A DNA stretch of 64,000 bases from assembly GCA_015272325.1 (NCBI GenBank), contig JACYLU010000002.1, positions 1 to 64,000 on the forward strand. The letters are read 5' to 3'. The notes below the pieces were generated by a model. The model saw only the letters and a list, made by a program, of their open reading frames with translations. It had not been told where the DNA came from and did no database searches. The position numbers were made by a program, and so were the translations under genes. Shown one piece after another: positions 18,486 to 21,101 of this stretch (its first letter is position 1; every line of letters begins with the position of its first letter). The stretch is from Synechococcales cyanobacterium C42_A2020_086. GTDB taxonomy: Bacteria > Cyanobacteriota > Cyanobacteriia > Elainellales > Elainellaceae.

Positions 18486-19250
18486 ATGCAGCAGTTCATA
18501 GAACGGGTTAAAACTGGAGGCGCAAAATCTCTGAGGTTTGCTTGGACGCATCGCAGCAGTTTGACCTTGCTGCTATTGGGGGTATTGCTGCCGCTCTATG
18601 GATTTGGCGAACTGGCTGAAGACATCTGGGAAAAAGAGGATGGATTTAGCTGGGATAAGCCGCTTCTGCTGTTTATCCATGCCTATGCTCGACCACAGCT
18701 TGATGCTCTAGCCTCTGCTCTAACGCGGCTCGGCGGCTTTTGGGGCGTGACATTGATGGCAACGCTGATTGCTCTGGGGCTGCTGATGGGGCGGCGATGG
18801 CGGCGGTTGACCTTTTTCCTGATTGCCCTGATTGGTAATGGCTTGATTAATCGTGTTACTAAAGGTTTGCTGCAACGGGTTCGTCCGCAGCTTTGGGAAT
18901 CCCCTGCACCTGAGTTTGACTACGGCTTTCCTAGCGGTCATGCCATGGCTAGTATGGGGCTAGTGGCAGCGCTGGTAGTTTTGAGCTGGCAGAGTCGCTG
19001 GCGCTGGTGGGTAGTGGCGGTGGGTGGTTTGTTTGTGAGTACGGTGGCCTGGACGCGGCTGTATCTCGGGGTTCACTATCCCAGTGATATTGCCGCAGGC
19101 TGGATGGCATCCGTTGCTTGGGTCATCGGCGTGTGGCTAGTGACCAGACCAACTGCCAGACATCCGGCAGAGGGAACCGAACGAGGGGTTTTGCCAGACC
19201 AGCCCTTGCCGAACCAGCAACAGAAATGCGCTGTATCGCAGGATAGGTAA
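18486..19250 (+). CDS. PAP2-family membrane phosphatase
   Basis: 254 residues with about six hydrophobic segments. The three PAP2 motifs are complete: KGLLQRVRP (K-x6-RP), FPSGHAMAS (PSGH) and RLYLGVHYPSDIAAGW (SR-x5-H-x3-D type). Such enzymes dephosphorylate lipids such as phosphatidate or undecaprenyl pyrophosphate at the membrane. Start ATG 18486 lies in the tenA operon. The last 35 residues are hydrophilic and variable. Confidence 0.88.
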   Translation: MQQFIERVKTGGAKSLRFAWTHRSSLTLLLLGVLLPLYGFGELAEDIWEKEDGFSWDKPLLLFIHAYARPQLDALASALTRLGGFWGVTLMATLIALGLLMGRRWRRLTFFLIALIGNGLINRVTKGLLQRVRPQLWESPAPEFDYGFPSGHAMASMGLVAALVVLSWQSRWRWWVVAVGGLFVSTVAWTRLYLGVHYPSDIAAGWMASVAWVIGVWLVTRPTARHPAEGTERGVLPDQPLPNQQQKCAVSQDR

Positions 19251-19267: not shown

Positions 19268-19328
19268 ATCAGCAGTCAGAAAGACCTTTCTGACTTGGGG
19301 AGGGTCAGAACTCCCAATGAGAGCTGAT
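19268..19328. ncRNA. Three-way-junction inverted-repeat structure, possible small RNA or 3' element
   Basis: The outer stem ATCAGC (19268-19273)/GCTGAT (19323-19328) encloses two perfect hairpins: AGTCAGAAA-gacc-TTTCTGACT (19274-19295) and GGGAG/CTCCC (19298-19315). Such nesting is unlikely to be random. It begins 18 bases after the PAP2 stop, so it may be the 3' end of that transcript or the beginning of an independent RNA. No known RNA family was recognised. Confidence 0.4.
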
Positions 19329-19841
19329 ACAGTGAACTCATAGAAAAACGCACTGGTAAGGACGTTATACCGCAGTGGTCCCTTGCTGAGTCTCGAAGGA
19401 GAGCGACGTCAGAGATTCAGACAGTGCTTATAAATACCGACTCAAACGGCGTGGAGTTTTTGTCGCTTCCTCCACCTTGTTACAACCAACGGGAGGCTAA
19501 ACCCTCCACCAGAGCGGTCAGAGGTTGTAGACGTTTGTGGAATGCAGCTGCTTGGCATGCCATTGTTTTTAGCGCAAGTCTCTAGATGTGAACGCCTCGC
19601 TAAGCGGGACCCTCATATCTGGAGGCTTGTTCTCATCCGTAGATGCGGATAGATCCGTAGATGCGGATAGATAGCAACAGCTCAAGATTTCAAGACTAAC
19701 TTCAAGACGAGTCTCAATCCAAATTCGTTTTTTCGGCTAGCATTGCTTGCTCAGGCGGTCGTTCCAGTGAAGACAACATTCTCCTGGTCAGCCGAGCAAT
19801 TTTGAGTTATTGAGACAAGACCTTTATTGAGACAGGACATT
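19329..19841. other. Convergent intergenic region rich in inverted repeats; candidate structured RNA
   Basis: Paired arms: CACTGGTA (19351)/TACC-CAGTG (19368-19377); GTGGAG (19451)/CTCCAC (19470-19475); TACAACC (19481-19487)/GGTTGTA (19523-19529) enclosing GGAGG (19492)/CCTCC (19503-19507); CTCTAGATGTG (19580-19590)/CATATCTGGAG (19614-19624) with an inner hairpin. No protein frame fits. The two flanking genes converge, so no promoter function is needed here. I could not match it to RNase P, tmRNA, SRP or 6S RNA. Confidence 0.4.
19635..19668. repeat. Tandem pair of 16-bp hairpin units
   Basis: ATCCGTAGATGCGGAT occurs at 19635-19650 and again at 19653-19668, separated by AG. Each copy is itself an ATCCG/CGGAT hairpin. 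Confidence 0.85.
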
Positions 19842-21101
19842 CTAGAGCGCACCACTCCCCTGCACAATATGCTTGACGGTCGTTAGGGTTTCCAGGCTAA
19901 TCAATCCACGACGATAGCCTTTCTGGTTGCACATTCCCAGCACAATGGGGCTGCCCGGTCTGGGATTGCGGGAGAAGCGCGGCGAAGCATTGATGTAAGT
20001 CATGGCGCTGTTAACGCCAAGGGCAAATTGACGGCTCTCCTGATAGGACTCGGTCGCCAGACAGTCTGCATGCCCACTGCTGTAGTGGTTGATCCAGTTA
20101 ATCGCAGTCTCCAAACTTTCAACAACCTTGAAGGCAATGGTGTTATTGAGGTAGGCTTGGCTCCACTCGGCAGTGTCTGCAACTACCGAAAACAGCTCTG
20201 GAAATTCTGCCGCTAGCTCCCTATCTCCTCGCAGATGGAAGCCTTTCTCCTTCAGGCTGCTCCAGAGCATCGTTAGAGCCGTAGAGCTGTGATGGCGATG
20301 GATCAATACTTTCTCAATGGCGTTAACCGGGTCTGGCTCGCTCTGGTGGCTATCGAGAATCATCCAGCGAGCAATATCAAGGCTTCCTGAGGGCGACCAA
20401 TAGAGATAGCAGTTGCCGATGGCAGTCCGCAGAACGGGAGCTGTTGCCTGTCGCACCACTTGCTGCACTAGACTAGAACGACCGTAGGGAATGACCAAGT
20501 TCACATACTGATCCAGCGTGACCAGCTCGCGAATTAAATCGCCCTGATCCGAGGGCAATAGCTGCAAGCAATGGTCAGGCAATCCGGCATCTTCGATGGC
20601 TAAAATTAACGTCTCCGCAATGGCTTGGTTGGAGTGGCTGGCTTCGGTGCTGCCCCGTAAGATCAAGCTATTGCCCGAGCGGATGCACAGCCCGGCCGCA
20701 ATGGCAGCTAGCTCAGGGAAAGCCTCATAAACAAAGGCAATCACCCCTAACGGCATCAACTGGTAGTAGGTTTGGCACTGATCGACCTGAAACGAGGGAA
20801 TATTCAGCACCGGCTGGATGGGATCCGACAGTTCAGCCAGACGCTGCAAAATCTGTCCTGCGGTTTGTAGCCGCTCGGGCGTGAGTTTCAGCCAATCCAC
20901 GACCAGTTCGGGAACGGCCATTTCGCGGCTTACTTCTAAATCTAGGGTATTGGCTTCTAGGATGTCGTCCTGTCGCTCCAGTAAAGCCTCTGCCATGGTA
21001 TGGAGGGCACGACTGCGCTCACTCCCCTTAAGGGCAGCCAACCTCAGGGCAGACTGCTGAGCACGGAGAGCAATAGAAGTGAGAGCGGGAAAAGCGTTCA
21101 A
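19842..21101 (-). CDS. ProA-like gamma-glutamyl phosphate reductase homologue lacking the catalytic Cys
   Basis: 419 residues, aligned throughout with glutamate-5-semialdehyde dehydrogenase (proline synthesis): LAAIAAGLCIRSGNSLILRG, HCLQLLPSDQGDLIRELV, VNLVIPYGRSSLVQQVV. Where ProA enzymes read VCNAMET with the catalytic cysteine, this protein reads PVNAIEK, so Val259 (codon 20325-20327) replaces Cys. Without that thiol the normal acyl-enzyme chemistry should fail. The fold is otherwise intact, which suggests a second, altered ProA copy with a changed or regulatory role rather than a pseudogene. Start ATG 21101; the gene converges with the PAP2 gene. Confidence 0.85.
   Translation of the reverse strand: MNAFPALTSIALRAQQSALRLAALKGSERSRALHTMAEALLERQDDILEANTLDLEVSREMAVPELVVDWLKLTPERLQTAGQILQRLAELSDPIQPVLNIPSFQVDQCQTYYQLMPLGVIAFVYEAFPELAAIAAGLCIRSGNSLILRGSTEASHSNQAIAETLILAIEDAGLPDHCLQLLPSDQGDLIRELVTLDQYVNLVIPYGRSSLVQQVVRQATAPVLRTAIGNCYLYWSPSGSLDIARWMILDSHQSEPDPVNAIEKVLIHRHHSSTALTMLWSSLKEKGFHLRGDRELAAEFPELFSVVADTAEWSQAYLNNTIAFKVVESLETAINWINHYSSGHADCLATESYQESRQFALGVNSAMTYINASPRFSRNPRPGSPIVLGMCNQKGYRRGLISLETLTTVKHIVQGSGAL

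Follow-up and report, generated by a model that had tools for sequence, protein, structure and literature searches.

The cyanobacterial CyVA-1 RNA: a second domain, interlocking loops and a candidate membrane protein partner

What does a strongly folding gap between two convergent cyanobacterial genes contain? The window, by which we mean the whole stretch of 64,000 nucleotides analyzed here, comes from Synechococcales cyanobacterium C42_A2020_086 (contig JACYLU010000002.1). In it a gap of about 591 bases separates the end of a PAP2-phosphatase gene (19250) from the end of proA on the minus strand (19842). The first-pass annotation, which was made from the letters alone, placed one unassigned, highly structured region at 19268-19668 in this gap of some 590 bases. 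The gap and its structure are real. The plus strand of this region folds at -147.6 kcal/mol compared with -122.5 kcal/mol (sd 6.4) for shuffled sequences (z -3.9); none of 100 shuffles was as low, and a noncoding RNA lies inside the gap.

The region is neither unassigned nor a single unit, however. A search of 4227 Rfam families returned one family in the gap, CyVA-1 (RF02965), which covers the first 78 bases of the RNA with model positions 1-77 (Table 1); the first-pass annotation had itself named a match to a known family as what would refute its view. The same search gave no match to the OLE RNA family, and CyVA-1 alone matched even at E values up to 5. The housekeeping RNAs 6S, tmRNA, SRP and RNase P RNA are alike in being structured bacterial noncoding RNAs; none of them matched inside the gap and they are ruled out, in keeping with the first-pass annotation, which could not assign the region to any of the four. 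Two unrelated things had been merged into one region: the CyVA-1 RNA, and single-copy hairpins at 19574-19670 that lie outside it. The most extreme folding of the gap is found in the latter and not in the RNA.

The name of the CyVA-1 family presumably points to Verrucomicrobia and Acidobacteria. The passages naming the family in the literature found (PMC7002113) report it at low abundance in the cyanobacteria of a halite metatranscriptome; these passages state no function and name no partner protein.

Table 1. Features of the gap and its flanks, in positions of the window. Percentages are alignment cells in which the two positions can pair.
Feature	Position	Strand	Partner or content	Evidence
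PAP2-phosphatase gene	18486-19250	+	left flank of gap	
Whole conserved two-domain RNA	19350-19537	+	188 nt	model R1, match 1-188, 189.1 bits, E 5.3e-45 for own genome (window sequence in the training set)
Domain 1	19350-19427	+	Rfam RF02965, CyVA-1	cmscan 74.9 bits, gathering threshold 41.4
P1, 5' side	19350-19355	+	pairs with 19422-19427	Rfam structure; covariation of 19351-19354 with 19423-19426; 68.5% paired, with misalignment of two of the six pairs in this count
Hairpin P2	19360-19381	+	19360-19363 with 19378-19381	Rfam structure; 82.5% paired
Hairpin P3	19386-19420	+	19386-19394 with 19412-19420; conserved GAAGGAGAGCGA in loop	both-sided changes in 9/9 pairs; 93.3% paired
Domain 2	19443-19537	+	second three-way junction, outside the Rfam model	model R2, 105.6 bits (window sequence in the training set); covariation
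P4, 5' side	19443-19448	+	pairs with 19532-19537; closes domain 2	71.1% paired; both-sided changes in 6/6 pairs
Hairpin P5	19451-19475	+	19451-19456 with 19470-19475; loop TTTTTGTCGCTTC	99.2% paired
Hairpin P6	19481-19529	+	19481-19487 with 19523-19529; inner 19492-19496 with 19503-19507	93.0% and 98.7% paired
Loop-loop helix PK-B	19369-19374	+	19513-19518	95.8% paired; both-sided changes in 5/6 pairs
Loop-loop helix PK-A	19402-19407	+	19462-19467	97.1% paired; both-sided changes in 4/6 pairs, other two invariant
Long single-copy hairpin	19574-19630		3' of the RNA, outside the conserved RNA	folded as 19572-19632, z -6.9
Two tandem 18-nt repeats	19635-19670		can form short hairpins; outside the conserved RNA	folded as 19630-19680, z -5.1
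proA	19842-21101	-	right flank of gap	

Two domains locked by loop-loop helices

Domain 1 of the window copy is a full-length, high-scoring member of CyVA-1 with the same three-way junction and conserved loop. The Rfam model, which has 77 positions, ends before the rest of the RNA. Fourteen related loci, two of which overlap, were compared with the gap, and in 13 the similarity continued beyond the end of the Rfam model. The genome of the window holds a second copy of the RNA at C10:250939, and this is followed directly by a weak second CyVA-1 match of 32 bits. The aligned copies share one layout, in which a linker whose length varies connects the 78-base domain 1 with a second three-way junction. 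The junction with two inner hairpins that had been noticed in the window is real, and there are actually two, both backed by covariation. A model restricted to domain 2 found 79 copies with at least 62 bits in 76 of 81 sources, plus three degenerate remains; the 79 include one copy from which part of domain 2 is missing (L086). This model (R2) was built from 58 of 71 domain-2 sequences, and since many of the matches trained it its scores characterize the family without testing it independently.

Single-sequence folding of domains 1 and 2 is unremarkable (z -1.7 and -1.1); the evidence for both domains is covariation. From 92 RF02965 matches 84 were used; five second matches that fall on domain 2 and the matches of G067, G123 and G249 were left out. 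Of these 84 copies 81 were aligned, while L094, L116 and L117 were dropped on account of a poor domain-2 anchor. Dereplication at 90% left 74 copies, and removal of L086, L102 and L109, in which domain 2 is degenerate, left 71. The 63 copies with a length of 225 nt or shorter were used for the pair count and for the full-length model R1.

Covariation was ranked over 19110 column pairs in the 74 dereplicated copies. Pairs between the two domains were among the best, beside those of ordinary helices. The pair 19371-19516 of PK-B occupies rank 8 (C-G in 52 copies, T-A in 14, G-C in 4) and the pair 19407-19462 of PK-A rank 14 (C-G in 37, T-A in 30). Some lower high-scoring column pairs are non-complementary and reflect two lineages; these were set aside. 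Over the 55 named pairs in 63 copies 89.6% of 3377 cells are paired, compared with 42-45% after a shift of the partners by one to three columns, in a set where the removal of degenerate copies favors the structure. Both-sided changes occur in 50 of the 55 pairs, and in 9 of the 12 pairs of PK-A and PK-B together. Covariation in homologous copies, which the first-pass annotation had proposed as a check, is thus present and extends to both loop-loop helices. Chance secondary structure is ruled out by the covariation and the slide controls, and the covariation makes a coding function of the RNA region unlikely. Support is weak for P4, which is absent from the RNAalifold consensus. At 19374-19513, the last pair of PK-B, the copy in the window has A-A.

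The geometry of the two helices is reciprocal: each loop of domain 1 pairs with the hairpin of opposite rank in domain 2, the first with the second and the second with the first. In the Rfam structure both hairpin loops are drawn unpaired, whereas here both pair with domain 2. These data show that covariation supports the two-domain fold together with both loop-loop helices. The Rfam CyVA-1 model is only the 5' half of the RNA and omits the partner sides of both helices. The stretch AAGGAGA at 19396-19402, in the conserved loop of domain 1, resembles a ribosome-binding site.

The two halves are also alike. At E values up to 1e-3 per genome the RF02965 model matches domain 2 in five copies, with 41.3, 34.0, 32.2, 30.6 and 29.3 bits (genomes G228, G157, G000, G190 and G149). 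In the opposite direction the domain-2 model was run over 0.9 million bases with E values up to 10 and gave 92 matches: 79 on domain 2, three on degenerate copies, nine on domain 1 and one elsewhere. That nine of the ten matches outside domain 2 fall on domain 1 has a chance of about 5e-19, even though these matches are individually weak (best E 0.041). The likeness is less clear to a sequence-only HMM than to the structural models; 2 of 71 domain-1 sequences reached at least 5 bits compared with none of 710 shuffled ones. The comparison suggests that the halves arose by internal duplication. If an ancestral domain once dimerized with itself and was then duplicated within one chain, this would explain both the likeness of the halves and their swapped loops.

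Neighboring repeated copies of the RNA hint at local duplication; the distance between their starts is 208 bases in L053 and 726 bases in L040. Two pattern matches each were seen in L130, L149, L155 and L182.

A membrane protein that accompanies the RNA

The distribution of the RNA was determined in 388 genomes of the cyanobacterial class. RF02965 detects it in 71 of them and the full-length model R1 in 74, in some as remnants only. A scan of genome contigs for the exact pattern yielded 72 stretches, 70 of which are titled as cyanobacteria; strains from culture collections such as Chlorogloeopsis fritschii PCC 6912, Leptolyngbya sp. PCC 7375 and Fischerella sp. PCC 9431 are among the carriers of the RNA. 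A stretch from a Terriglobia MAG (L144) falls within a coding frame and has the look of a chance match. Another, labelled Candidatus Gracilibacteria (L176), carries the RNA and a gene that reads as cyanobacterial rpoC1; this contig is probably mis-binned.

The open reading frames near 81 loci were clustered; the 30 largest clusters were inspected by eye and two were searched against families. The commonest neighbor is a conserved membrane protein, present at 28 loci with a median distance of 178 bases to the RNA. In 26 of the 28 its gene shares the strand of the RNA and lies just 5' of it. A SnoaL-like gene is near the RNA in 16 of the 81 loci (for example L083:5843-6334 and L104:5024-5641) and in 13 of these it lies just 3' on the same strand. 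The membrane protein is likewise encoded at 14 of the 16, which makes a three-part cluster possible.

The membrane protein has no Pfam family at E 0.001, only insignificant NCBIfam matches, and no relative of solved structure by sequence. AlphaFold models it with good confidence (pLDDT 88.6) as a bundle of five long helices, of which one could cross the membrane twice by its length; a beta hairpin at the N-terminus and a C-terminal helix (212-226) complete the model. A fold search with this model gave nothing significant; the best hit was the acetate channel SatP with E 0.32. The protein occurs in two forms, which differ behind the last membrane helix. The tail was read in all of the 52 strong-form genomes except G089 and in 23 rows of the weak form. 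All 51 strong rows have a tail with the consensus QWDMRxP...LTxEQxxFNxxQxxLR (short in G132), while in all 23 weak rows the sequence ends, diverges or is cut short a little way past QWD.

The strong, tailed form was defined as a profile match of at least 270 bits, a cut that was chosen after the scores had been seen and that lies in a narrow gap between 271.7 and 268.2 bits. By this definition 52 of the 388 genomes encode the tailed form, and 51 of the 52 carry the RNA. In the other 336 genomes the RNA was found in 20 by RF02965 and in 23 by the full-length model. The 23 are made up of 11 of the 64 genomes with only a weaker homologue or a remnant and 12 of the 272 with no match. The link is one-sided, since the tailed protein is present in only 51 of the 74 RNA-bearing genomes. 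Counted by genus, the RNA occurs in 35 of 36 genera with the tailed form versus 19 of 124 others; in the window's own family the numbers are 7 of 7 versus 2 of 29. Fisher tests ignore shared descent and are too optimistic for such counts. The 51 genomes with both RNA and tailed protein represent 35 genera in 18 families. In 29 of them the gene lies no more than 4 kb from the RNA, and in 22 (13 genera, 8 families) the two are apart. The genome of the window is among the latter; its gene, at G000:C33:28095-28778, is not beside the RNA copy of the window.

The one genome with a tailed protein but not the RNA is G141, whose assembly is 93% complete and 8% contaminated and in which the gene is on a 5.6-kb contig. 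Here neither the model search nor a motif search by eye on the gene contig gave an RNA.

The exact-pattern scan provided a further set of 71 named loci. The gene was within the fetched stretch in 18 and not in 53. Searches of the genomes for 36 of these 53 revealed the gene with at least 300 bits in 25, a weaker homologue in three, a remnant in one and nothing in seven; the 25 include G389, which is matched only to position 211 of 230. In five of the 36 genomes fewer than 600 bases upstream were covered, so that the gene could adjoin the RNA, and at least Adonisia turfae is also among the 388.

The genomes that have the RNA but lack the tailed protein were inspected as well. A best RNA score below 97 bits, a cut again chosen after the scores had been seen, occurs in none of the 51 genomes with the tailed protein and in 7 of the 23 others. 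The remaining 16 have a well-scoring RNA (G012, G071, G104, G152, G190, G228, G229, G251, G259, G262, G266, G268, G307, G312, G371 and G374). There are partial excuses for some: the assemblies of G262, G266 and G268 are less than 86% complete, G374 has a broken gene beside the RNA, and G228 is without part of domain 2. The rest of the 16 are real exceptions to the link between RNA and protein. In G374 the pieces of the membrane-protein gene lie just upstream of an intact RNA (C3:4352594-4353148). In G159 the start of a membrane-protein gene overlaps the last part of the RNA match (C1:427706-427877).

In a tree constructed from the membrane part of the protein only, the presence of the tail requires four changes. 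Three of these are forced by well-supported branches; the direction of change depends on the root. The tailless lineage of G295 and G350 has no RNA, while its tailed neighbors in the tree, G377 and G213, have it. A clade of 19 tailless rows includes 12 genomes without the RNA, two with degenerate copies only (G055, G073) and one with two good copies (G259); G001, G084, G280 and G380, which also belong to this clade, have a tailed copy of their own and the RNA. Two more tailless cases are G123, which has a weak RNA (76 bits), and G251, which has a good RNA and an unsure position in the tree. Overall, and with some exceptions, lineages without the tail are for the most part also without a good RNA.

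Possible roles of the RNA and the membrane protein

Because nearly every sampled genome with the tailed protein carries the RNA, we think that the two probably work together. The reading that we prefer, tentatively and at a little under an even chance, is that of a stand-alone, duplicated two-domain RNA that acts in trans in a membrane complex with the tailed protein. The RNA of about 190 nt would consist of two three-way-junction domains derived from a duplication and locked by reciprocal loop pairing. It would bind the conserved membrane protein and be the RNA component of the complex that the two form at the membrane. The C-terminal tail, if it faces the cytoplasm and is used in this way, would be the likely docking site; it bears no Pfam mark of RNA binding. 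This reading also presumes that the RNA is transcribed in this organism, is located at the membrane and has a physiological role. We favor the membrane complex because the RNA is heavily structured, shows no dependence on the orientation of the downstream gene, has terminator-like stems and travels with one membrane protein.

There is a precedent for such an arrangement. According to PMC12265935 and PMC12286853, the membrane localization of OLE RNA depends on a neighboring membrane protein, OapA, and the RNA forms dimers. The former source describes a dimer held through conserved contacts and predicts four helices for OapA; OLE RNA has about 600 nt (PMC9723947). The likeness is that of a structured bacterial noncoding RNA which is often beside the gene of a multi-helix membrane protein, and which this protein accompanies across species (here neighbors in 29 of 51 genomes, with the RNA in 51 of 52 genomes that have the protein and the protein in 51 of 74 that have the RNA). 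Furthermore, where OLE, as described in those sources, dimerizes, two alike domains in one chain would do something similar here. The differences are equally clear. CyVA-1 RNA has about 190 nt compared with about 600 for OLE, occurs in Cyanobacteria and not in Bacillota, and has no OLE match in Rfam. Its candidate partner has no Pfam match and five modelled long helices, one of them two-pass, compared with the four predicted in OapA. Protein binding has been shown for OLE, whereas it is proposed here from co-occurrence. By analogy we propose that CyVA-1 RNA and the tailed protein work like OLE RNA and OapA; we do not count them as members of that system because size, structure and phylum differ and Rfam gives no OLE match. 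A bolder version, in which CyVA-1 is half of a fused RNA dimer with partner-swapping loops and the membrane RNP is a second, independent class beside OLE, is conceivable but doubtful. RNA-RNA contacts that include kissing loops and are conserved by covariation are also described for GOLLD and ROOL (PMC12286853); those RNAs are large homo-oligomers, while in CyVA-1 both halves are in one chain.

Joint occurrence can of course have other causes. The RNA and the tailed protein could share a history and not a function, as old loci that are often neighbors and are kept or lost by descent or genome reduction. Their proximity in 29 of 51 genomes is in line with this, as are the 16 well-scoring RNAs without a tailed protein and the inflation of the counts by common descent. 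Yet the two are apart in 22 of the 51 genomes from 13 genera and 8 families, and the gene turned up in 25 of the 36 searched genomes of the named loci even though none had been seen near the RNA. Tailless homologues mostly lack the RNA (it is present in 11 of 64), so that the link follows the tail and not the gene family, and the presence of the tail has changed at least three times. Together, these results make a merely shared history rather unlikely. A mobile or selfish RNA element, such as a transposon guide RNA or a ribozyme-like element scattering through genomes, would account for the patchy presence, the differing neighbors and the adjacent repeated copies in L040 and L053. Against it stand the low numbers, since no genome has more than four matches to RF02965 or more than three to R1, and the location behind prk-tenA that G000, G022 and G035 have in common. 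The exact pattern found nothing in viral contigs and blastn nothing in phage or plasmid records; these searches speak against a phage, plasmid or viral element, and the mobile RNA is the least probable of all the explanations considered.

The remaining explanations assign the RNA to the control of genes. It might be a small regulatory RNA that acts in trans by pairing its conserved loops with mRNAs, that of the membrane protein being one target. The conserved purine loop AAGGAGA has the look of a ribosome-binding site, and a terminator-like stem with a T-run is found within 110 nt of 22 of 81 copies compared with 121 of 1620 mononucleotide shuffles. The conserved loop stretches are occupied, however, by the two covarying loop-loop helices, and in 49 genomes the pairing of the RNA with its cognate mRNA was no better than with non-cognate ones (t -0.66 and -0.79 for the two mRNA stretches compared). 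The structural constraint is also heavier than expected for RNAs of this type, and we regard regulation by pairing as improbable. The RNA might also act in cis on a neighboring gene, as its riboswitch, its terminator or a structure in its 3' UTR. This would agree with the frequent position of the RNA directly behind the membrane-protein gene (26 of 28) and, on the same strand, ahead of the SnoaL-like gene (13 of 16). Of the nearest upstream genes, 56 of 79 share the strand of the RNA (p 2.6e-4), as do 30 of 49 (30 versus 19) outside these two gene associations; read-through from upstream is therefore possible. In the window, by contrast, both neighbors converge on the RNA. The orientation of the downstream gene is even, with 45 on the same and 36 on the opposite strand (p 0.37), or 28 and 24 outside the two associations, and the RNA has many different neighbors. 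This leaves a role in cis very improbable.

With the second domain, the interlocking loop helices and a candidate partner with a definable tail, CyVA-1 becomes open to experimental tests. The membrane complex that we prefer, if it exists, would be a compact cyanobacterial membrane RNA-protein particle with an RNA of about one third of the size of OLE, available in cultured cyanobacteria. If the proposed history is true, the RNA would be an example of one made pseudo-symmetric by duplication. The Rfam CyVA-1 model should be extended in any case.

Transcription signals and the rest of the gap

Within the gap no promoter was found by consensus. At positions -30 to -25 of 74 copies seven TATAAT-like hexamers were observed compared with 3.95 expected (sd 1.8), and further upstream there were fewer than expected; this signal is unconvincing. 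Several copies, for example L051, L058 and L061, have an AGATAGG-like stretch some 50 bases upstream of P1, which may be a promoter element or additional RNA structure. Downstream of the window copy no T-run terminator was found. The long hairpin at 19574-19630 begins after 36 bases beyond the end of the RNA, and it is a guess that it serves as the transcription stop of the RNA without a T-run.

For the part of the gap that follows the RNA (19540-19842) no convincing other copy was present in its own genome. The first-pass annotation had recorded two tandem 16-bp hairpins here. A tandem pair that is able to fold does exist, but it is an 18-nt sequence present twice, and each copy can adopt a 16-nt hairpin with a short stem. 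The minimum-energy fold of the pair is a single hairpin with 7+6 base pairs and a short outer stem. The exact 14-base core of the repeat is found nowhere else in the genome. An imperfect 17-nt tandem repeat (19807-19840), the second copy of which is 88% alike, lies just beyond the stop codon of the minus-strand gene proA.
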